From: Hyphomicrobiales bacterium
GTDB taxonomy: Bacteria > Pseudomonadota > Alphaproteobacteria > Rhizobiales > JAJFHB01
DNA length: 64,000 bases
Reading direction: 5' to 3'
Assembly: GCA_021775755.1 (NCBI GenBank)
Contig: JAJFHE010000050.1
Coordinates: 186,001-250,000 of the forward strand
Shown: positions 537 through 61,306 of the stretch, piece by piece
Position numbering within the stretch: the first letter of the stretch is position 1
How the letters are laid out: every line of letters begins with the position of its first letter
The notes under the pieces: generated by a model
The model's database searches: none
Told to the model about the DNA's origin: nothing
Seen by the model: the letters and a program-made list of their open reading frames with translations, nothing else
Position numbers and translations under genes: made by a program

Positions 537-2915
537 ATGATGGTCCGTTGCGCGCCGGGGTGCGTGGTGAGTGTGGATTCCGACAAGACCTGGAGTGGAG
601 CAACATCGCCGGACCGGCGGCGAAAATTCGCTGTTGGCGGGATACTGCAGGCGGAGAGACCGCAGTGGTTCTTGTGGATGCCGGTTCTAATTGCCACAGG
701 TGTGGCGGTGTATTTCAGTCTGGCGAAAGAGCCGGCGCTGGTGGTTGCGGGAGCCGTGCTGGCGGGAGCTACGGTTCTCGCCGTCGTAAGCGTGCAGTCC
801 AAGTGGAGCGCCGTTGGTCTCGGCGCCATATGCGTCGCCGCGGGATTCGCCCTTGCCACCTTGCGTACGCAGCATGTTGCCGCCCCGGTTATCGAAAAGC
901 GCGCAAACTACGTTTTGATATCGGGATGGGTGGAGACCGCGTCTCTCATCTCAGGTGCCCAGAAGATTGTGCTGCGCGTCCACGGGGTTGACGACTGGGG
1001 TGCGGACCGCCTGCCATACCGGGTCAGATTGTCCGTGTTCGGGGCAGACAATCCGATCAGGGCGGGCGATGCGGTCAGTATGCGGGCAAGGTTGCTGCCT
1101 TTGCCCGGGCCGGTGCGGCCTGGAGGCTTTGATTTCGCCCGGCGTAACTGGTTTCTGCGCATTGGCGGGACAGGACAGGCATTTGGTGCGCCAGAACCCG
1201 CCGAACTTGGCGAGCCTCCGCTGGGCATTGTCCTGAGGCGGCACATACAAAGCTGGCGTGTCGCCATAATGGAGCGGCTTGATAAGGCGATGAGCGGTGA
1301 AGCGGCAGGCTTTGCGATTGCCGTGACGACCGGCGAACGCGGCCGGTTGCCTGGCGCGGTAGTGGACAGTTTGCGGGCCTCGGGGCTTGCACATCTGCTT
1401 GCGATCTCCGGTCTGCACATGGCGCTGGTAGCGACGTCGCTGTTTGCCATGGTGCGGGCTTTTTTGGCACTCTTCCCGGCGCTCGCGCTGGCATATCCCA
1501 TCAAGAAATGGGCGGCGGTCGTCGCGCTCCTTGGAGCGTGTATTTATCTTGCGCTTTCGGGTGCCAGTATCTCGACGCAACGCGCGTTCATCATGCTGGC
1601 GATCATGTTCGGGGCGATCCTTCTCGACCGGCCGGCAATAAGCATCCGCAATGTAGCGATCGCCGCACTGATCATTCTCGCGATGCGTCCTGAAAGCGCT
1701 CTCGATGTCAGTTTCCAGATGTCATTTCTCACTGTGACCGTGCTCGTCTCGTTCTATGAGAACCAGCGTGACAGGTGGGCTGACATGACCGGCAGCGGTT
1801 ACGCCTCCACTCCGCGCCAGCGAGCCCTCAGGCGGGGCCTGCTTTACTGTGCGGGAGTAATAACAACGACGATGCTTGCAACGGTCGCGACCGCTCCCAT
1901 CGCGGCGTTCCAGTTTAACCAGATCGCGGTTTACGGCGTACTCGGCAATCTCGTTGCCGTACCGTTGATGTCGCTTGTCATTATGCCGCTTGCCCTGGCC
2001 TCGCTGCTCCTTATGCCCTTTGGCGCTGAGGGGATGGTCACATGGGCGCTGGATGGCTCGATCGGCTGGCTGCAGGACTGGGCGGCTTTGGTGTCGCAAT
2101 TGCCCGGCGCGCGCGGGTATGTCGGATCCGTGAGCGAATGGGCATCGCTGACGGTAGTCGCGGGGCTGTTGTGGCTGTGCCTGTGGCGCACCCGCTGGCG
2201 TGTGCTTGGGTTTGCATTGCTGATCTGCGGGTTGGGACTGACGGCGCTTCGCGACCGGCCGGATGTTCTGATCGACCGGTTGGCAAAAGTTGTGGCGGTG
2301 CGCGGGCCGGAGGGAACACTGGCGCTTACAAGCACGCGCGCCGGGCGGTATGTATCTGAGCGTTGGCTACTGGCGGATGGGGACGGTGCGTCTTTGCGAG
2401 ATGCCGCGGCACGCGACCATATGAAATGCGATGGCGCTGCGTGCAGCGCCGTGATGGCAGGCGGTGGACGGGTTGCGGTTGTTTTCGATGCAGAAGCCCT
2501 GTGGGATGAATGCAGAATTGCAGATATTGTGGTGTCAAGGATCCCCGTTGGCTCGGGTTGCAGAAGACCGCGGGCCGTGATCGACTGGTGGGATGTTTAC
2601 TCAAGCGGCGCCCATGCGGTCTATTCAGTTGAAGACCGGTTGACCATACGCCGGGCGGACGAGGAGCGCGGTGACCGCCCATGGGTGTTGCGCCGGGCAG
2701 GCCCCGTGGAGCGGGACGCCGACAGGACGGCAGGAGTGGCGATGGCGGATGATGAGGAGGACGGCGCGCCGTGCGATGCAGATGACGAGCCTGTGGTCGA
2801 CGACCTCCCGGTCAGACGGGACGACACGGGCCCTGACCGGCTCGCCAACGCGCTTGAACGCATCGCCTACCGTTTGCAGGAAATGGGCAACTGGTTGATC
2901 GGCTTTCTGCGGTAG
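537..2915 (+). CDS. comEC: ComEC/Rec2 family competence protein (start uncertain; ORF open from 288)
   Basis: Motifs [21 protein letters not shown] and [27 protein letters not shown] typical of ComEC; multi-TM. Confidence 0.85.
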
Positions 2916-2917
2916 TT

Positions 2918-3622
2918 TCAGTATTTGCGCAAGAGACCTACGAGGCGGCCCTGAACGCGGATCCGGTCGGGACCGAATATGCGCGTTTCATACGCCGGAT
3001 TTGCCGCTTCAAGCGCAATCGAATCGCCTTTACGACGCAACCGCTTCAATGTTGCTTCCTCATCGTCGACGAGCGCCACGACAATTTCGCCGTTGGCGGC
3101 GTTGTCTTTCTGCTGAATGATAACGGTATCGCCATCCAGGATGCCGGCCTCGATCATCGAATCGCCTTTGACGTCGAGGGCGAAATGTTCACCGGAACCA
3201 AGCATTTCAGGCGGAACCGTGATGTTGTGCGAATGGTCCTGAATGGCCGAGATCGGGACACCGGCGGCAATCCGGCCCATGACCGGCACGGTGGCCTGAG
3301 GTGTTTCGGTGCCATCGGGTTCGCGTTCCTTGCGAATGCGCCCGAGACTTCCCTCAATAACGCTCGGATTGAAGCCGCGTGTCGATGACGCAAGGCCCGG
3401 AGCCACGGATTCCGGCAGTTTAAGAACTTCCAGAGCGCGTGCGCGATGCGGCAGGCGGCGGATAAAACCGCGCTCTTCAAGCGCCGTTATCAGCCGATGA
3501 ATGCCCGACTTCGAGCGCAGATCCAAAGCTTCCTTCATTTCCTCAAAGGACGGCGGAACGCCCGCTTCCTTGAGCCGTTCGTGAATGAACATCAAAAGGT
3601 CGTGTTGTTTTCGCGTAAGCAT
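2918..3622 (-). CDS. lexA: SOS repressor LexA
   Basis: [54 protein letters not shown]... plus S24 domain [17 protein letters not shown]; start set to MLTRKQ. Confidence 0.96.
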
Positions 3623-36778: not shown

Positions 36779-37540
36779 TTAGGACGTGGACTCATAAACG
36801 CCCAGCCATAAGCGGATTGCCGCGAGCTTGATGAACGCGAGGAAGTTCTCCGCCAGCTTGTCGTAGCGAGTTGCGATCCGCCTGCAATGCTTGATCCGAT
36901 TGAAGAACCGCTCCACGTGATTGCGGTCTCGGTATAGATGCGGGCTGAAGCAGATCGGGTTCTTGCGATTTCGTTTCGGCGGAATGTTTGCCCACGCTCC
37001 ACGCTCTCGCGCAAGTTCTCTGATTGCATCCGAGTCGTAGGCCCTGTCGGCAAGCAGCATTCCATTGTATCGAAGTTCTGTCAGCAGATCGCCGGCGAGT
37101 AGACTGTCATGTTCGTGGCCGGCGCTGAGCGCCAGTCGGATTGGTAGACCCTTGGCATCGACAACCGCGTGAATCTTCGTTGTCAGTCCGCCTCGTGAAC
37201 GGCCCGTGCAGTTGCTCTCGGATTTGGCAATGCAGCTTGCGTGTTGATGCACCCGGACAATGGACGTGTCGAGCATCTGCACATCGGCGTCACGACTATC
37301 CGTCATGGCAGCGAGGATGTTGTCCCAGATGCCTGCCTTGCGCCATCGATTAAAGCGATTGTAGCAGGTCGTGTACGGCCCATAGCAATCAGGCAGATCG
37401 CGCCATGGTGCCCCTGAGCGTAACACCCAAAAGATGCCATTCAGTACACGCCGGTCGTCAACACGCGGAACACCGCGTGACTTTGCAGGCAGAACAGGGC
37501 AGATAATCGACCATTCAAGGTCCGTAAATTCATAACGCAT
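36779..37540 (-). CDS. IS5 family (IS427-like) transposase, single intact ORF
   Basis: MRYEFTDLEWSIICPVLPAKSRGVPRVDDRRVLNGIFWVLRSGAPWRDLPDCYGPYTTCYNRFNRWRK...LDTSIVRVHQHA...LLADRAYDSD...ERFFNRIKHCRRIATRYDK; ends ...ESTS with its stop inside the left IR. Confidence 0.93.
   Translation of the reverse strand: MRYEFTDLEWSIICPVLPAKSRGVPRVDDRRVLNGIFWVLRSGAPWRDLPDCYGPYTTCYNRFNRWRKAGIWDNILAAMTDSRDADVQMLDTSIVRVHQHASCIAKSESNCTGRSRGGLTTKIHAVVDAKGLPIRLALSAGHEHDSLLAGDLLTELRYNGMLLADRAYDSDAIRELARERGAWANIPPKRNRKNPICFSPHLYRDRNHVERFFNRIKHCRRIATRYDKLAENFLAFIKLAAIRLWLGVYESTS
36780..36800. repeat. Outer left inverted repeat (IS427-like end)
   Basis: TAGGACGTGGACTCATAAACG; its reverse complement matches 41661-41681 at 19/21 positions. 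Confidence 0.8.
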
Positions 37541-38947: not shown

Positions 38948-39206
38948 CTGACGAGTGGCTTGGCCGGGTAATCGAGAGAGTCTGTTCATGGCAGATTTTG
39001 TTGATAAAGTCATTTTCGCGGGTCGATCAAAAAATCTCAGCCTCACTGGTGAGCGTTTCGGAAATTCGGCTGGGGGGACAGCCGCAACCCCGGTTTCGCC
39101 TTGTATGACCTTGTGAGTATCGCGCGCAGGGAAATAGAAAGTCGTTTTGGGCGCAATCGATTTCTGCCAAGAAATTCGGGCATTGTATACTTGACATAGC
39201 AGAGCC

Positions 39207-39401
39207 ATGAGACCATCTGATTCTAGTGAGCCTGACGAGAAACGAGATTTTGAATTGCCGCCGGATTCACTTGTGCGCGAGATTGCGTCGATGCTTTCGG
39301 CTTGGGAGTGGGAGGAAGACACCTCAACCGCTACCGATCTTGCTCGTCGGATTGTTGGGCTATGTCAACAAGGACGTCCTGAATACCGACGCCATATTTG
39401 A
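39207..39401 (+). CDS. Possible 64-aa passenger ORF, unknown
   Basis: MRPSDSSEPDEKRDFELPPDSLVREIASMLSAWEWEEDTSTATDLARRIVGLCQQ...; immediately inside the left TIR; overlaps the convergent gene 3' end. Confidence 0.3.
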   Translation: MRPSDSSEPDEKRDFELPPDSLVREIASMLSAWEWEEDTSTATDLARRIVGLCQQGRPEYRRHI

Positions 39402-39846
39402 GGGCATATCCAGAAAGCTTCTGGGCCTTGACTGCTGCTTCCAAGATTGACTTTGTGGTGACGCTAACTCTTTTTTGTTTCAAGCCCGTTTTGTTGTGGA
39501 GTAGACGAATAAGCTGAGCATCGCCAGTTTCTTCAGAGTGCTCGATTACAGCCCCGTGGATCATATCGTGGCGAGCTTCAGATGCAGTTTCGATTTCATC
39601 GAGCCAGTCCGCAAGCTGGGCCTGGGTTTCTTCTGGCAGGGGCATACGCTTGAATGCTTTGCGGAGATACTTCAGCTTGCGGCTTAGTGCTCTAGGGGTT
39701 TCATTTTCATACTGCCGGTTGCCAAGCCCGTGGTGGATTACATGAATCATACTATCCAAGCCGAGTTCAAGGTGGGCCCATGATATGGTAAGCCTACCCA
39801 ATGCGGCGAAAAACTCGTTAGCCTGAGGTGAATCGTAGTTAGACAT
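39331..39846 (-). CDS. Passenger protein with HEPN-like Rx4H motif, unknown function
   Basis: MSNYDSPQANEFFAALGRLTISWAHLELGLDSMIHVIHHG...DWLDEIETASEARHDMIHGAVIEHSE; all-helical appearance; R-HDMI-H motif. Family is inference. Confidence 0.7.
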   Translation of the reverse strand: MSNYDSPQANEFFAALGRLTISWAHLELGLDSMIHVIHHGLGNRQYENETPRALSRKLKYLRKAFKRMPLPEETQAQLADWLDEIETASEARHDMIHGAVIEHSEETGDAQLIRLLHNKTGLKQKRVSVTTKSILEAAVKAQKLSGYALKYGVGIQDVLVDIAQQSDEQDR

Positions 39847-40006
39847 GTCAGCCCCCGAAGATAAATTGACTAAAGAAGAAATCGCACAACGGCGCGATGC
39901 AGGTCTTAAGGCACTTCTGAAAATGCCCCCCAAGCCTCACTCTGAGATTGTAGGCAAGGGGAAGGCAAAGGGCAAAGCCGATACGAAGGGGGAGCCCAAC
40001 GAATGA
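39845..40006 (+). CDS. 53-aa passenger protein, unknown
   Basis: MSAPEDKLTKEEIAQRRDAGLKALLKMPPKPHSEIVGKGKAKGKADTKGEPNE; 18 bp upstream of the TM protein gene in the same orientation. Confidence 0.55.
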   Translation: MSAPEDKLTKEEIAQRRDAGLKALLKMPPKPHSEIVGKGKAKGKADTKGEPNE

Positions 40007-40024
40007 TTCCGATGTGATCTCCTA

Positions 40025-40528
40025 ATGGCAGACGATAAAGGCTTGCAAGAGCAAGCTCTGCTTGAACTGTTCAAGTCGGAGCTTGGACACCACGGGAGAT
40101 TAAGTGATGCCTTAATATCGCTTGCCCAGAACACTCTCCGCGTGTCTTTCTTGTTAAATGGCGGCGCGCTGATCGCTGCCCTTTCCGTGTACAGCGCCAA
40201 GGGTGCATCATCAGCACTCCCAATGTGGTCGTTTGGCGTTGCAGCAATATGCTGGACAGTTGGTTTGGTTGCCAGCGCAATAGCCGTTGAACGGGCGAGG
40301 CGTTCCCAACGTGAGTTTCAGGTTCAAGCGAGCAACCAGTTTAGACAAACCGGTCGAGAATTATTGAATTTACCTCTGCTGAAAGAGGAAGATAGCGTCG
40401 AGCCTGTAATCCAACGCGGGTATGAATTTTTGGATCAATCTATGTGTGCTTGGCGCGTGTCGATAGCCGCGTTTGTGGTCGGCGCTGGTGTTGCTATTAT
40501 TTCTCTCTTTTTTGCTGGAGCATCTTGA
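40025..40528 (+). CDS. Passenger membrane protein (about 3 TM), unknown
   Basis: Hydrophobic segments FLLNGGALIAALSVYS, LPMWSFGVAAICWTVGLVASAIA and SIAAFVVGAGVAIISLFFA. Confidence 0.7.
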   Translation: MADDKGLQEQALLELFKSELGHHGRLSDALISLAQNTLRVSFLLNGGALIAALSVYSAKGASSALPMWSFGVAAICWTVGLVASAIAVERARRSQREFQVQASNQFRQTGRELLNLPLLKEEDSVEPVIQRGYEFLDQSMCAWRVSIAAFVVGAGVAIISLFFAGAS

Positions 40529-40545
40529 GGCGTTTCACCTTCTGT

Positions 40546-41466
40546 TTAAGCGTGTGCGGTTTCGTTAATCCGCCGATAAGTCAGGCGCTTGCCAGAGATA
40601 CCTTTGAATGCAACTACTGTGCGTTCTGCGTCAGTGACCTTGCGGTAGTTATAGCGGAAATCAAACTCGCCCAAATAGCGCTTAAGGTGCTGTTGTGAGA
40701 CGTGCTGATAGGTGCCGGTGATGCCGCGCTTGAGAATGCTGAAATAACCCTCGACCGTGTTGGTGTGCCAGAAGCCGCCGCGAACATATTCGTCAATCGA
40801 ATGGTTGACAGTGCCATGACCGGAGAACTCTTTACCGGTGCGTTTGTAGTAACCTGCATCATCGGTCATGAGATAGGACTTGCGGTCAATCTGCGTAACC
40901 AGAACGGTTCTGAGGTTATTGCGGTTCACGTTCGGCAGATGAAACGAGCGCACTTTGCCGTCACGCTCGACGAGCGACACGACAGGCTCTTTGGTCGGAA
41001 TAGGAGCGCCGCGCTTTGCGTTCTTTGCCTTGCCGCCGACATAGGTTTCGTCGGCTTCGATAACCTTGTTCTGTCCGCCAAGTCCGTCAGTGCTGTTTTC
41101 GCGCATCGCTTCACGGACACGGTGCATCATGAACCAAGCCGTTTTGTACGTGACACCCAACATGCGGTGCATCTGGTGAGCGGAAATGCCTTTCTTGCTG
41201 GCATTGATCAGATGAAAGGCCAGAACCCATTTGTGCAAAGGAATGCGGCTACGCTCCAGAACCGTGCCGACTGTCACGGTGAACGCGCCACGGCATGAAT
41301 TGCACTGGTGCAGCCCGGCGCGATGAGATTTGCCCTTGAGCTTGTGGACGTTGTCAGTCTCGCCACAGTGCGGGCAATACGGCCCATCCGGCCACATGAT
41401 GCTTTCGAGATGTTTGCGGGCTGCGGTCTCTTTTGTGAAAATCGGATTTGTGAGATCGAATGACAT
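40546..41466 (-). CDS. IS1595 family (ISXO2-like) transposase
   Basis: N-terminal zinc ribbon CPHCGETDNVHKLKGKSHRAGLHQCNSCRGAFTVTVGT; DDE-type EADETYVGGKAK...LMTDDAGYYK...HTNTVEGYFSILKRGITGTYQHVSQQHLKRYLGEFDFRYN. Confidence 0.95.
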   Translation of the reverse strand: MSFDLTNPIFTKETAARKHLESIMWPDGPYCPHCGETDNVHKLKGKSHRAGLHQCNSCRGAFTVTVGTVLERSRIPLHKWVLAFHLINASKKGISAHQMHRMLGVTYKTAWFMMHRVREAMRENSTDGLGGQNKVIEADETYVGGKAKNAKRGAPIPTKEPVVSLVERDGKVRSFHLPNVNRNNLRTVLVTQIDRKSYLMTDDAGYYKRTGKEFSGHGTVNHSIDEYVRGGFWHTNTVEGYFSILKRGITGTYQHVSQQHLKRYLGEFDFRYNYRKVTDAERTVVAFKGISGKRLTYRRINETAHA

Positions 41467-41660
41467 GGCTTTTTCCCTTGCTATCCCTTATGTGGGAAGG
41501 GTGTCGTGCTATGTCAAGTATATAATGCCCAGAAATTCGACCTCCGAATTTTCCGACTTTATCAACAATATCGGCACATAGCGGAAGTACCACGCACCAC
41601 TCGAAAACGTCTTATGTTGGGTGCTAACCGGACATGCTTCCCAGCGGCGTCAACGGTTCG

Positions 41661-41733: not shown

Positions 41734-42359
41734 ATGCCGTTATTAAATTCTGTAATTGACATTTCACACTATCAAAAAGTTTCGAGCCTCAAGAAAGTAA
41801 AAGCAGACGGCATAGTTGGAATTATTCACAAGGCCACTGAAGGTCGTACTTGGACTGACGGAAAATACTACAACCGTTCTCGTTGGGCAGTTGAAGAAAG
41901 AGTGATGTGGGGAGCCTATCATTATGGACTTCGCGGGAACCCCAAACAACAGGTTGATCACTTTCTCTCATTCACCGATCCGGACGAGAAGGTACTTCTA
42001 GTTCTCGACTTTGAAGCGACGTCGCATGCCCCTCAGATGAGGCGCAAAGACGCTGAGGCGTTTGTTGAAAGAGTTCACAAGCTGACGGGTGTCTGGCCCG
42101 GCTTGTACACAGGTCAGAGTTTCATCAACGATACGCTTGGAAACGATACCAGCACATCGCTTGCAAACTGTTGGCTTTGGATCGCACCTACAACACCAAA
42201 AAGCCAAAAGTGCCACCGGCCTGGGACACTTATACAATGTGGCAATACACTGATGGCTCACTTGGTCCCGCACCGAGAAAGGTCAATGGCATCGGACGGT
42301 GCGACCGGGACAAATTCAACGGGTCTCTCGATCAACTCAAACGATTGTGGAACCACTGA
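41734..42359 (+). pseudogene. GH25 lysozyme-like gene with a -1 frameshift near 42180-42205
   Basis: Frame 1: MPLLNSVIDISHYQKVSSLKKVKADGIVGIIHKATEG...LLVLDFEATSHAP...LANCWLWIA; continues in frame 3 as YNTKKPKVPPAWDTYTMWQYTDGSLG...CDRDKFNGSLDQLKRLWNH*. Confidence 0.8.
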
Positions 42360-42377
42360 TGGCTCCGGGACGTTCCT

Positions 42378-42917
42378 TCAGGCAAGCATCGGTTTGCCGA
42401 GTTGCGCCAGTGCGAGTTCGAGGGCGCTGCGCACAGTGAGTTCCCGAATGCCCGAACGACCCTTGTCTTCCGAAAACCAACACTTCAAGTGAAGCGTTGC
42501 CTGTTCGCGGCGGGCGCAGGCGATGTGGACGAGGCCGACGGGTTTATCCTTTGTGCCGCCACCCGGTCCCGCAACGCCGGTGACCGCAATTGCGAGATCG
42601 CAACCGCTTACTTCGCGGGCGCCTTCCGCCATGGCACGCGCCACCTGCTCGCTGACGGCACCACGTTCTTCCAGCAGGTTTCGCGGCACGCGCAGCCAAG
42701 TTTCCTTGGCACCGTTGGAATAGGTCACAAACCCGCAAGACAGGACATCCGACGAGCCGGCTATTTCGGTGAGGCACGCTGAAATGAGGCCGCCGGTACA
42801 TGATTCCGCAGTAGCCAGCGTATGGCCGAGTTCACGGCACCGGTCCAGTACCGCTTCGGCAAGTTTCAGGTCTCGGGGCGTAAACACTGTTCCCTCCGTC
42901 AAATGTGCTGCGGACAT
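42378..42917 (-). CDS. CinA-family nicotinamide-nucleotide amidohydrolase
   Basis: LATAESCTGGLISACLTEIAGSSDVLSCGFVTYSNGAKE...AVTGVAGPGGGTKDKPVGLVH. Confidence 0.94.
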   Translation of the reverse strand: MSAAHLTEGTVFTPRDLKLAEAVLDRCRELGHTLATAESCTGGLISACLTEIAGSSDVLSCGFVTYSNGAKETWLRVPRNLLEERGAVSEQVARAMAEGAREVSGCDLAIAVTGVAGPGGGTKDKPVGLVHIACARREQATLHLKCWFSEDKGRSGIRELTVRSALELALAQLGKPMLA

Positions 42918-56616: not shown

Positions 56617-57441
56617 TCACCCGGATCGTTCCTGTGCTTTCACGCCGTCCCACAGAGCATCCATCTCTTCCAGGCAGGAGTCTTCGGGCCGTTTTCCGTC
56701 TTCGTGCAAGCAGGCTTCGACCGCACGGAAACGGCGATCAAACTTGCTGTTTGCCTGACGCAACGCGTCTTCCGGGTCGATTCCCAAATGTCGTGCAATA
56801 TTCGAGACGGCAAAGATAAGATCACCGCATTCTTCGGCCATGCGCTGGCGATTGCCCGCCGCCATTTCATCCCGCAATTCTTGAACTTCTTCGTCAATCT
56901 TCAAAAAGACAGCATCCGCATCCGGCCAATCGAAGCCGACACGGGCGGCACGCTTTTGCAGCTTCTCAGCGCGCATTAAAGCGGGAAGAGCGCGCGGGAT
57001 GCCATCCAGCACGCTCTCGCGGCCGTTTCCGCCACTGTGTTTCGCCGCACGTTCTTGCGACTTGATGCGCTCCCAGGAACCCTTGACGGCGCCTGCATCA
57101 CGCTCCTCGGCGTCACCGAAGACATGGGGGTGGCGGCGCACCATTTTGGTGCACACTGACTCGATGACATCTTCGAGGGCAAACGTCCCGTCTTCGCTTG
57201 CCATCTGGGCGTGATAGACGACCTGAAGCAGGAGGTCGCCAAGCTCGTCGCGCAATCCCGCCATATCGCCCTGTTCAATGGCGTCGGCGACCTCATAGGC
57301 CTCTTCAATCGTGTACGGTGCGATGGACGAGAATGACTGCTCAAGATCCCAAGGGCACCCGGTGCCGGGCGTCCTCAGCGCCTTCATGATTGCGACGAGC
57401 GTCGACATGCGTCGCGGATCGCCATGCGGGTGGTCGGCCAT
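56617..57441 (-). CDS. mazG: Nucleoside triphosphate pyrophosphohydrolase MazG
   Basis: LRTPGTGCPWDLEQSFSSIAPYTIEEAYEVADAIEQGDMAGLRDELGDLLLQVVYHAQMA. Confidence 0.95.
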   Translation of the reverse strand: MADHPHGDPRRMSTLVAIMKALRTPGTGCPWDLEQSFSSIAPYTIEEAYEVADAIEQGDMAGLRDELGDLLLQVVYHAQMASEDGTFALEDVIESVCTKMVRRHPHVFGDAEERDAGAVKGSWERIKSQERAAKHSGGNGRESVLDGIPRALPALMRAEKLQKRAARVGFDWPDADAVFLKIDEEVQELRDEMAAGNRQRMAEECGDLIFAVSNIARHLGIDPEDALRQANSKFDRRFRAVEACLHEDGKRPEDSCLEEMDALWDGVKAQERSG

Positions 57442-57509
57442 GGTGGGCGCTCCAGTGGTTAGACAATGAGCTCATGAACAAGGGAGAGGGTGGTCGGCAA
57501 CAGCTACAC

Positions 57510-57845
57510 TCAACTGGCGCACTTTATACACGTCGGAACGGTTGGATCCTGATCCAGGCGGCCATCGCTGATTTCGTCGCCGCAAGAGATACAAAACCCG
57601 TACTCGCCATCATCGAGTCTGATAAGCGCTGCATCGACGCGGGCAATGGTCTGCTGGCGCCGGCGTTCCGTTTCAAGCTGCATGGCCTGCTCCTGCAGCG
57701 CATCCATGCGCGAAAGTCTGCCGACGGACTGCTGGTCCAGTTCCACAGGCGCTCGGTCTTCGTTGGTTGCTTCTGACAACTCAACCAGTTCATTGCGCAG
57801 CGTCACCAATCTGGCGCGGCAATTCTTGTCGGAGGTTTTCGACAT
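57510..57845 (-). CDS. DksA/TraR-family C4 zinc-finger protein
   Basis: ALIRLDDGEYGFCISCGDEISDGRLDQDPTVPTCIKC; start set to MSKTSDK. Confidence 0.85.
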   Translation of the reverse strand: MSKTSDKNCRARLVTLRNELVELSEATNEDRAPVELDQQSVGRLSRMDALQEQAMQLETERRRQQTIARVDAALIRLDDGEYGFCISCGDEISDGRLDQDPTVPTCIKCAS

Positions 57846-57995
57846 CTGTTCCGAAACGTTATGCGGTGTAACGGCAATTGTAGCACATCGGAGAGCCATT
57901 TTGGACCTTTGACGCACAGCACGAAGCTCAGGAGGGACCGTTGCGAAGTGCATCGGCGGGCCGCGTGGTATGCCCGGATGTTGTTATACGATTCG

Positions 57996-58011
57996 CATAA
58001 TATATATTATG
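57996..58011. repeat. 16-bp perfect AT-rich palindrome CATAATATATATTATG
   Basis: Sequence equals its own reverse complement; intergenic. Confidence 0.7.
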
Positions 58012-58121
58012 GAAAATACTTAACCACGCCTTTCACTACAATTATCAATAGTTTGGCCGCATTGCGGAAGGAAGTGCCTGTCCTGGAGACCTGTACCACT
58101 TTTCCGGCTGGCTGCCCGCGA

Positions 58122-58922
58122 TCAGTCGACCGACTCGATTACCATGTTGTCATATGCGGGCTCGACATGATCCGGTAGTGAGCTTTTGAGCGTGTCGTAG
58201 TCGAGGTCGATGTGCATGTTGGTGAGGATGGCGCGGCGCGGTTTTAACTGCTCAATCCAGCGCAATGTGTCTTCCAGGGCAAAATGTGAAGGATGATAGG
58301 TGTAGCGCAGTGCATCGACGATCCAGACGTCGAGCCCCGACAGAGCCTCGATGCTCTCTTCGGGGACGTCGTTGATGTCGCTTGAATAGGCAAGATTTCC
58401 GATGCGAAAGCCGAGTGAGCGGATGTTTCCGTGGACTTGCTCAAAGGGCAATGCTGTCACGTCGCCACCCGGGCCCGTTACTGTTACCGGTTTATGCGGT
58501 GCCAGGTCGTGGTGTTCGCAAATAGCGGGATAGTCGCTGCCGGGCGCGCGTTCGAAACAGTAATTGAACCCTGCCATGAGCCGAGTGGTTGTCCGGTGAT
58601 CCGCCCAGGTCTGGACGCGCCGCTGGCCGTTGAGGGCAATAACGCGCAAGTCGTCGATACCGTGGATGTGGTCGGCATGTTCGTGCGTAAATATGACACC
58701 GTCGACCCATGAAATGCCGGTGTCGAGCAATTGGGCGCGCAAATCAGGCGAGGTGTCTATGAGGACGTTCGTTGTGCCCTCGCCCGAGGCCCGCTGCACC
58801 AGCATGGAACAGCGCCGGCGCCGGTTGCGCGGGTTATCCGGGTCGCATGTTCCCCAGTTCCCGCCGATGCGCGGTACGCCGCCGGAGGACCCGCAGCCGA
58901 GAATTGTGAAACGCAGGCTCAT
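58122..58922 (-). CDS. MBL-fold metallo-hydrolase (PhnP-like)
   Basis: ILGCGSSGGVPRIGGNWGTCDPDNPRNRRRRCSMLV and FTHEHADHIHGIDDLR. Confidence 0.93.
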   Translation of the reverse strand: MSLRFTILGCGSSGGVPRIGGNWGTCDPDNPRNRRRRCSMLVQRASGEGTTNVLIDTSPDLRAQLLDTGISWVDGVIFTHEHADHIHGIDDLRVIALNGQRRVQTWADHRTTTRLMAGFNYCFERAPGSDYPAICEHHDLAPHKPVTVTGPGGDVTALPFEQVHGNIRSLGFRIGNLAYSSDINDVPEESIEALSGLDVWIVDALRYTYHPSHFALEDTLRWIEQLKPRRAILTNMHIDLDYDTLKSSLPDHVEPAYDNMVIESVD

Positions 58923-59740
58923 GCGTTCTCAGCGGCGGTTCTGAATGGCTCCGGCAGCGGAACCTTGTCGAACAGCTGGAAGAAATTCATTGAAGTCTTC
59001 TGGGCCATATCGCCCAGTTCTATCCCGTGTACGTCGGCCAGTTTCTGCAATGTGTTCACCACGAATGCCGGCTCATTTCGTTTGCCGCGATGGGGAACCG
59101 GGGAAAGATAGGGCGCGTCGGTTTCAACGAGAAGGCGGTTCTGAGGAACGGTGAGTGCGATATCGCGCAGCTCCTGCGCGCCATTGAATGTGAGTATGCC
59201 CGAAAACGAAACGTAAGCGCCGAGTGCCAGACCGCGCTCCGCCAGGATTGCTCTGGAACTGAAACAATGCAGGAGCGGTTTGAAGGAGCCGCCCCGTTCA
59301 GTTTCTTCCTCCAGTATGCGGGCCGTGTCGTCTTCTGCTTCGCGGCTGTGTATGACGAGTGGAAGTCCGGTTTCCTGTGCGGCGCGAATGTGCACACGGA
59401 AGCTCTTTTCCTGATCTTCGCGGGGGCTGAAATCATAGTGATAATCGAGACCCGCCTCACCTATGCCGACCACTTTTGGATGTCGCGCCAGTTCGACGAG
59501 CTGAACGGTTGTCACATCGGTTTCATCCTTGGCGTTATGAGGATGCGTGCCGACGGTGCAAAAGACATTGTCGAACCGCTCCGCGATTGCGCGCACGCGG
59601 TCGAATTCGTTTACGCGGGTCGAAATCGTCACCATGGCGTGAACGCCGCAGGCTGCGGCTCTGTCGACAATATCGTCGAGCTCATCGGCAAACTGCGGAA
59701 AATCCAGGTGGCAGTGGCTGTCGACAATTGCTGGCTGCAT
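58919..59740 (-). CDS. TatD-family hydrolase
   Basis: IVDSHCHLDFPQF, VGIGEAGLDYHYDFSPREDQEKSFRVHIRAAQETGLPLVIHSREAE, LVETDAPYLSPVPHRGKRNEP. Confidence 0.95.
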   Translation of the reverse strand: MQPAIVDSHCHLDFPQFADELDDIVDRAAACGVHAMVTISTRVNEFDRVRAIAERFDNVFCTVGTHPHNAKDETDVTTVQLVELARHPKVVGIGEAGLDYHYDFSPREDQEKSFRVHIRAAQETGLPLVIHSREAEDDTARILEEETERGGSFKPLLHCFSSRAILAERGLALGAYVSFSGILTFNGAQELRDIALTVPQNRLLVETDAPYLSPVPHRGKRNEPAFVVNTLQKLADVHGIELGDMAQKTSMNFFQLFDKVPLPEPFRTAAENA

Positions 59741-59752
59741 GGTCGAACCGCT

Positions 59753-61306
59753 CTAGGCTGTTTCCGGCGCCGTATAACGCGGAAATACAGGTTGCGGTAC
59801 AGGCAGTTCAGTGCCCGGTTCAAGGCGGCCCGCCTCTCCGAGATCAGCGAAGTTCCGACGCGATGGATCAACCGCCAGAAGATCGAGCATCTTCGCCGCC
59901 GCCTCGGGCACAAACGGCTGTGCGAGAATTGCCATCTGCCGCACGGTTTCCGCGGTCACATAGAGCACGGTTGCCATGCGTTCGGGGTCGGATTTCTTGA
60001 GCGCCCATGGTTCTTCACCGGCAAAATACCGGTTGGCGTCCGCAATGACGGCCCAGATCGCCGCCAGTATATTGTGGATCGCCTGACGGTCGGCCTCCGG
60101 TCGGACCGCTTCAAGCACCGCGTCCGCGGCATCGAGCAATGTCCTGTCGGCCTCGCTGAAGGTTCCAGGCTTCGGCATCCTGCCCTCGCAGTTCTTTGCG
60201 ATCATCGACAGCGAACGCTGCGCGAGATTGCCGAAGTCATTGGCGAGATCGGCATTGATGCGATTGGCGATGGCTTCCTCTGAGTAACTGCCATCCTGGC
60301 CGAACGGCACCTCACGCATGAAGAAATAGCGCACCTGATCGACACCGAAGTGATCGCACAGGGCAAACGGATCGACCACGTTGCCGACGGACTTTGACAT
60401 CTTTTCTCCCTTAATGAGGAGAAAGCCGTGCACAAACACGCGCTTGGGCAGTTCAACGCCTGCGGACATCAAAAAGGCGGGCCAGTAAACGGAATGGAAA
60501 CGCGAGATGTCCTTGCCGATGACATGCACGTCCGCGGGCCAGTAGCGTTTGAAGTTTTCGTCTTCGATCTCAGGGAAGCCGACGCCGGTTATGTAGTTCG
60601 TAAGCGCATCTACCCACACATACATGATGTGGTTTTCAGTGCCAGGAACTGGAATGCCCCAGTCGAATGTGGTTCTCGACATGGAAAGATCGCGCAGGCC
60701 GCCTTTTACGAAGCTGACAATTTCATTGCGGCGCACATCCGGACGGATAAATCCCGGATTGGCCTCATAGTGCTGCAGTAGCTTGTCCTGGTAGGCGGAC
60801 AGACGGAAGAAGTAGCTCTCTTCCTCGACCCATTCAACGGGCGTGCCCTGGGGCGACAGCATCGTGCCCCCCTCGCCCTTCGTAAGTTCTTTCTCTTCGT
60901 AATAGGCCTCGTCGCGGACGGAATACCAGCCTGCGTAAGTGTCGAGATAGATGTCGCCGTTGGCTTCCATGCGGCGCCAGACTTCCTGCACCGAGGCGGT
61001 GTGCCGCGGTTCGGTGGTGCGTATGAAGTCGTCATTGGAACAGTTGAGTGCCGCGACCATGTCCTTGAACCGCGCGGTGTTGCGATCGGCAAGTTCAATC
61101 GGCGTCAGGCCTTCCGCCTTTGCGGTCTGCAGCATTTTGATGCCGTGCTCGTCGGTGCCTGTCAGAAAGAACACATCGTAGCCGTCGAGACGCTTGAAAC
61201 GCGCAAGCGCATCCGTTGCCAGCGCTTCGTAAGCGTGGCCGATATGCGGCTCGCCATTGGGATAGGAGATGGCGGTGGTAATGTAGAAAGGCGATTTATC
61301 TGACAT
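59753..61306 (-). CDS. metG: Methionyl-tRNA synthetase
   Basis: [49 protein letters not shown] and KMSKS motif. Confidence 0.97.

Follow-up and report, generated by a model that had tools for sequence, protein, structure and literature searches.

Insertion sequences are usually thought to carry the transposase alone. The window analyzed here, i.e. the whole stretch of 64,000 nucleotides, contains a unit for which the original prediction proposed an IS1595-family element with inverted ends, a perfect 8-bp duplication, a length of 2353 bp and a transposase filling under half of it. This locus raises the question of whether such a unit is a genuine transposon, what its other genes are, and how they are associated with the transposase. 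The element and its target site were delimited as follows:

39178..41530, no strand assigned: IS1595-family passenger-carrying element, 2353 bp (inverted repeats, target-site duplication, paralogous empty sites)
39178..39201, plus strand: cargo-end terminal inverted repeat, GGGCATTGTATACTTGACATAGCA, 24 nt
41507..41530, minus strand: transposase-end terminal inverted repeat, 24 nt
39170..39177, no strand assigned: left target-site duplication, AGAAATTC, single copy in uninterrupted host-repeat copies
41531..41538, no strand assigned: right target-site duplication, AGAAATTC, single copy in uninterrupted host-repeat copies
38998..39177, plus strand: left part of the host repeat (~210 bp) holding the insertion; right part at 41539-41568; uninterrupted copies elsewhere

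The two 24-nt ends match at 23 of 24 positions (96% complementary), and the flanking duplication is perfect, with AGAAATTC present twice and the 8-bp length that characterizes IS1595. The host repeat of about 210 bp around the element has the inverted ends KTGTTGATAAAGTC, and two uninterrupted copies of it were found in the same genome (G000), at C50:82316-82525 and C37:8114-8323. The boundaries are right, because these copies align without gaps across the joined flanks of the element, each with one target octamer (AGAAAATC / GAAATATC). The ends, duplication and unit length originally predicted were thus borne out, and the empty sites, proposed at that time as a check, exist as the two paralogous repeat copies with a single octamer each. 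The element is confirmed as a real, complete, non-composite IS1595-family transposon, which transposed with an 8-bp duplication. It is single-copy within its own genome, and a second, different IS1595 element is present at C76, with a transposase 59% identical to that of the window.

The host repeat with ends KTGTTGATAAAGTC is MITE-like and occurs three or more times in the genome. Directly to the right of the insertion, the open reading frame at 41734-42492 is by eye GH25-type muramidase-like and seemingly frameshifted near 42200, and an IS5-like transposase frame, also recognized by eye, is located 2 kb to the left of the element (36779-37540).

The following genes and gene junction were assigned within the element:

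39207..39401, plus strand: slot-3 small ORF of 64 aa, directed from the end into the element (ORF; position shared with relatives)
39331..39846, minus strand: slot-2 HEPN-like gene, 171 aa, R92-x4-H97 (RHDMIH) (phmmer cluster, invariant motif, AlphaFold2)
39844..39847, no strand assigned: CATG, overlapping head-to-head starts of the HEPN-like gene and S1 (sequence; same in relatives)
39845..40006, plus strand: S1 small ORF, 53 aa, containing AQRRDAGLKALLKMPPKPH followed by a basic tail (S1 profile, E 2.3e-14)
40025..40528, plus strand: slot-1 membrane protein of 167 aa with two or more predicted transmembrane segments (ORF and hydropathy)
40546..41466, minus strand: IS1595-family transposase, 306 aa (PF12762, PF12760, NF033547; alignment)

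The transposase matches the ISXO2-like DDE domain (PF12762, 1.9e-32) and NF033547 (1.7e-57), and it has an N-terminal zinc ribbon (PF12760, 1.3e-11). Residues D139, D202 and E239 are invariant in the alignment, and the protein is intact-looking. These Pfam and NCBIfam matches, the zinc ribbon and the 8-bp duplication support the family assignment, and the share of the transposase, described earlier as less than half, is 39% of the 2353-bp unit. As regards the remaining genes, the HEPN-like gene on the minus strand and the small and membrane ORFs on the plus strand had been correctly placed, but a fourth cargo ORF (39207-39401) had been missed. The supposed three-gene module therefore consists of four genes, and it is not fixed, since in relatives other genes take the place of those for the HEPN-like and membrane proteins.

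None of the cargo proteins of the window matched Pfam, NCBIfam, PADLOC or PHROG models at cut-off, and no close copies of the cargo were found in plasmids, phages or IMG/VR. In L028, slot 1 holds a protein distantly homologous to the membrane protein of the window (21% identity); a search for a wider family gave weak matches only, several with internal stops. Small ORFs in the same place and orientation as 39207-39401 are present in most related elements, and 21 of them form a family named here after its motif EITPEMIEAG. The 64-aa ORF of the window falls outside this family and was called coding by position only. A promoter and terminator scan gave results close to chance.

The relatives were collected by a transposase-alignment scan, which gave 80 loci, nearly all from Alphaproteobacteria, and additional loci came from separate genome searches. 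Within the scan set, ends and duplication defined the limits of 65 distinct elements. These are biased towards transposase similarity and detectable ends, by which they were picked. A perfect 8-bp duplication flanks 63 of them. Their median length is 2380 bp (range 1879-3601, n = 65), and when the same detector and thresholds were applied to 49 loci with shuffled downstream DNA, no false element was obtained. Cargo is the rule and not the exception in this IS1595 group, as a median of 60% of each element (n = 65) lies outside the transposase.

The small ORF next to the HEPN-like gene, S1, was found by profile iteration in 58 of the 65 elements, always convergent with the transposase and on the opposite strand. 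Its consensus is DxVLxRxLxTPPKPH, followed by a lysine-rich tail. S1 is protein-coding, because its frame has no stop in 50 sequences (10 to 35 stops in each of the other five frames) and its variation is concentrated at the wobble position, the entropy being 1.01 bits at codon position 1, 0.82 at position 2 and 1.59 at position 3. Antisense coding through this region, into which the HEPN-like frames run on, was rejected on the same grounds, and a TTG-started HEPN-like frame of 200 aa (39331-39933) was dropped in favor of the 171-aa ATG start owing to the coding evidence for S1. The AlphaFold2 model of S1 predicts a helix at residues 10-26 and then a disordered tail. S1 has no known relative, and no NCBIfam model was matched among 49 members.

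On a transposase tree of 108 rows, a few of which duplicate one record, S1 was called at E<1e-4 in 69 of the 86 rows of one clade and in none of the 22 rows outside it, three outside loci with E 0.002-0.003 being uncounted. Seventeen of the 86 rows have no detectable S1, and at least two of these (L193, whose transposase is the closest to that of the window, and L111) carry, in the corresponding head-to-head position, an ORF that resembles a diverged S1. The nearest S1 relative was among the three nearest relatives of the transposase in 24 of 58 cases, where 3.1 were expected (0/5000 shuffles). Within the HEPN-like set, the S1 nearest-neighbor agreement was 8/29 with the transposase (78/5000 shuffles) and 1/29 with the HEPN-like protein (3.1 expected). 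A simple distance correlation was too noisy for a decision (30/500 shuffles for transposase and S1, 172/500 for S1 and HEPN-like protein). As S1 tracks the transposase and not the HEPN-like gene, it is probably a backbone gene of the transposon rather than a dedicated antitoxin.

Evidence for the nature of the HEPN-like protein comes from its relatives and from its predicted structure. Among the 45 divergent slot-2 proteins, 29, including that of the window, join one phmmer cluster, and in an alignment of 30 homologues (these 29 and one further) the only invariant residues are R92 and H97, an R-x4-H pair present in 30/30. Almost always, the R is followed by N, H or D. The AlphaFold2 model (pLDDT 87) consists of helices 7-40, 54-67, 72-97 (which holds R92 and H97) and 131-169, with a beta-hairpin between the last two. 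In the HEPN superfamily (PMC3710099), a fold of four helices carries an R-x4-6-H motif where helix 3 ends, the R being directly followed by a polar residue, and in Csx1 a hairpin comes after the motif; the modelled protein has each of these features. Because the invariant pair is located at the end of the predicted third helix, the HEPN reading is strengthened, and the earlier guess of a HEPN-like protein has gained support from both alignment and model.

Support from databases is weak. One family member matches PF18735 (8.8e-6, the only Pfam HEPN match in the family), and hhalign against the PF18735 set gave E 4.8e-4 over only 20 columns around the motif (probability 32%). Foldseek found no relative of the model in the PDB (best E 0.057) and one viral model in BFVD, A0A4Y5TZQ9 (probability 1.00, TM 0.62, E 0.017). 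Across 398 genomes from the same order, the protein has none but distant relatives, and marginal PADLOC matches are confined to single members of the HEPN-like family. The protein is probably a HEPN protein, most likely a metal-independent ribonuclease that would act as a toxin or an abortive-infection effector. Differently from HEPN-MNT systems and the characterized HEPN superfamily, the protein of the window has no significant profile or fold match of its own and overlaps S1 head-to-head, and there is no MNT gene: none of the cargo ORFs was found to contain a minimal nucleotidyltransferase domain.

In 38 of the 58 S1 elements, the S1 start overlaps the start of a divergent cargo gene in the sequence CATG. 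In several others (L043, L044, L070, L089, L115 and L116), a co-directional cargo gene precedes S1, with its stop overlapping or abutting the S1 start. Pairs of elements with near-identical transposases reveal the exchange. L064 and L065 share 95% identity from the transposase end up to and including the S1 start codon, after which they are unrelated except in the last 29 nt. The pairs L072/L084, L079/L091 and L075/L087, with S1 85-97% identical, differ both between transposase and S1 and beyond the S1 start, and L113/L120, with near-identical transposases, follow the same exchange pattern. Since elements with near-identical transposases differ in both stretches, two slots are therefore exchanged, slot 1 from the transposase to the 3' end of S1 and slot 2 from the S1 start codon to the far end. 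The original prediction had asked whether other copies keep the cargo with the same transposase subgroup; they keep the transposase and S1, whereas the HEPN-like and membrane genes are swapped. As the starts overlap, each gene must have its promoter inside its neighbor or on the far side of it, so that transcription of one passes through the 5' part of the other. The overlap may possibly have a regulatory role.

The second IS1595 element of the genome (L027, G000 C76, about 57345-59800, duplication GATATTCC) has its own S1, a HEPN-like gene (RDRHKLAHC) other than that of the window element, and another slot-1 protein.

The cargo of other relatives could in part be assigned by Pfam. RelA_SpoT (L036), GmrSD_N (L097, L116), HEPN_MAE_28990 (L097), SocA_Panacea (L031, L037, L112, L208), DUF3800 (L040, L109, L200), NYN (L043), HNH (L044), Clp protease (L034), PIN (L203; sub-threshold in L204 and L232), the N6 methylase N6_Mtase (L210) and the ImmA-like IrrE/M78 domain (L217) were identified. 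The recognizable domains are thus largely of toxin-antitoxin or defence type, in agreement with the flavor that had been ascribed to the cargo from the window alone. Similar cargo also occurs, without S1, in elements outside the S1 clade. Three recurrent proteins were observed as well: a slot-1 family of ~160 aa (SLKTAxxIxKAL...CxxCY..G; L027, L052, L063, L069 and L091), for which the one member tested had no Pfam match; a second divergent slot-2 family of ~255 aa with the motif GDAVHNLRSALD (L034-, L049, L064, L065, L072, L087 and L114); and, outside the S1 clade, a protein of ~350 aa (GIGMGVLGDGTPYLNQRGLSVLCGVQNAHIGT) directly after the transposase (L209, L216 and L217).

With moderate confidence, we regard the element as a cassette-carrier IS1595 transposon whose backbone consists of the 24-nt ends, the DDE transposase and S1, and whose two swapped slots here hold the HEPN-like and membrane cargo. 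Exchange of the slots could proceed by homologous recombination through the transposase, S1 and end sequences. A more specific version is possible rather than probable: S1 would be a transposition helper as well as a fixed junction, the cargo would always be joined at the S1 start (CATG head-to-head or a short tandem overlap) with its expression in a set relation to S1, and the commonest cargo would be a new, fast-evolving HEPN ribonuclease family. On the cassette-carrier reading as a whole, S1 would assist or regulate transposition by means of its helix and basic tail instead of neutralizing cargo, perhaps docking on the transposase by the helix and on DNA by the tail, and the head-to-head overlap would couple the expression of S1 and cargo. 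The HEPN-like protein would cut RNA and stop growth when triggered, either by phage or by loss of the element, to the benefit of host or element through defence or retention, and the membrane protein may be an accessory or a second effector.

The exact start-codon overlap in 38/58 elements could also be explained if S1 and the HEPN-like gene were a dedicated toxin-antitoxin pair, in which the antitoxin S1 binds and blocks the HEPN ribonuclease and the overlapping starts hold the pair together. S1 is small, charged and predicted to be helical, and HEPN toxins usually have a small partner, as in HEPN-MNT (PMC7641770). However, S1 agrees with the HEPN-like protein in only 1/29 cases against 3.1 expected, the co-evolution test on which this was dropped as the best reading; the joint inheritance typical of type II systems was not observed; and S1 is retained when the HEPN-like gene is exchanged, being found beside RelA/SpoT, GmrSD, NYN and other unrelated cargo. 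We consider such a pair unlikely. That S1 is conserved beside varied toxin-type cargo would suit a promiscuous antitoxin that neutralizes many unrelated toxins, so that the element can take up new toxic genes, and such domains exist (Panacea, PMC10440598). This we consider very unlikely, as S1 evolves rapidly and along with the transposase, its predicted structure is one helix only, and neighboring clades carry similar cargo types without it.

It may also be asked whether the cargo has any toxin or defence role, which is an inference, or is neutral luggage gained by chance. Several slot proteins have no recognizable domain, and IS1595 elements with unrelated passengers, e.g. resistance genes, are known (PMC5704250). 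Neutral luggage appears quite unlikely, as the domains that can be recognized are largely of toxin-antitoxin or defence type, and the R-x4-H pair is the sole conserved feature of 30 divergent HEPN-like proteins, as would be expected if an active site were under selection.

Passenger-carrying IS1595 members, termed tIS, have already been reported (Siguier et al. 2009, Res Microbiol 160:232, as cited in PMC5704250); tISCpe8 and MTnSag1/tISSag10 carry lincomycin resistance (PMC5704250). They share with the present elements a zinc ribbon and ISXO2-like DDE transposase, ends of about 24 nt, an 8-bp duplication and passenger genes, whereas the exchangeable toxin/defence-type cargo, the conserved accessory S1 and the two defined slots distinguish the latter, although overlap with unnamed members is possible. 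Tn7-like transposons also have toxin-antitoxin or defence cargo, which includes ImmA, PIN, RelA-SpoT, HEPN and other such genes (PMC8649781), but their transposition machinery is unrelated and they are far larger than the present elements, which measure 2-4 kb and have one or two cargo cassettes. IS1595 passengers and the toxin/defence cargo of Tn7-like transposons are thus established. In the Panacea network (PMC10440598) partner genes are likewise exchanged around one conserved small component, and Panacea domains are themselves cargo in these IS1595 elements; S1, in contrast, has no Panacea domain and follows the transposase. No description of HEPN or toxin-antitoxin cargo in IS1595 was found in a search lying outside the founding IS1595 paper, nor were S1, the two-slot plan, the start-codon junction or the HEPN-like family found in the literature searched, ISfinder being outside the comparison.

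The relatives form a whole clade of small IS1595 elements (about 2-3.5 kb), widespread in Alphaproteobacteria, with swappable toxin/defence-type genes and a conserved unannotated small protein. If this is true, they would be a simple vehicle for the spread of toxin-antitoxin and defence genes; new effector families could readily be drawn from them, since the ends delimit the genes exactly, and they would serve as a test case for cargo exchange by mobile elements at a fixed junction.

At L034 and L122, pairs of IS1595 elements lie side by side and share one target duplication (AAATAAAT / ATTTATTT and AAGAGGCG, respectively), which suggests repeated insertion at the same site.
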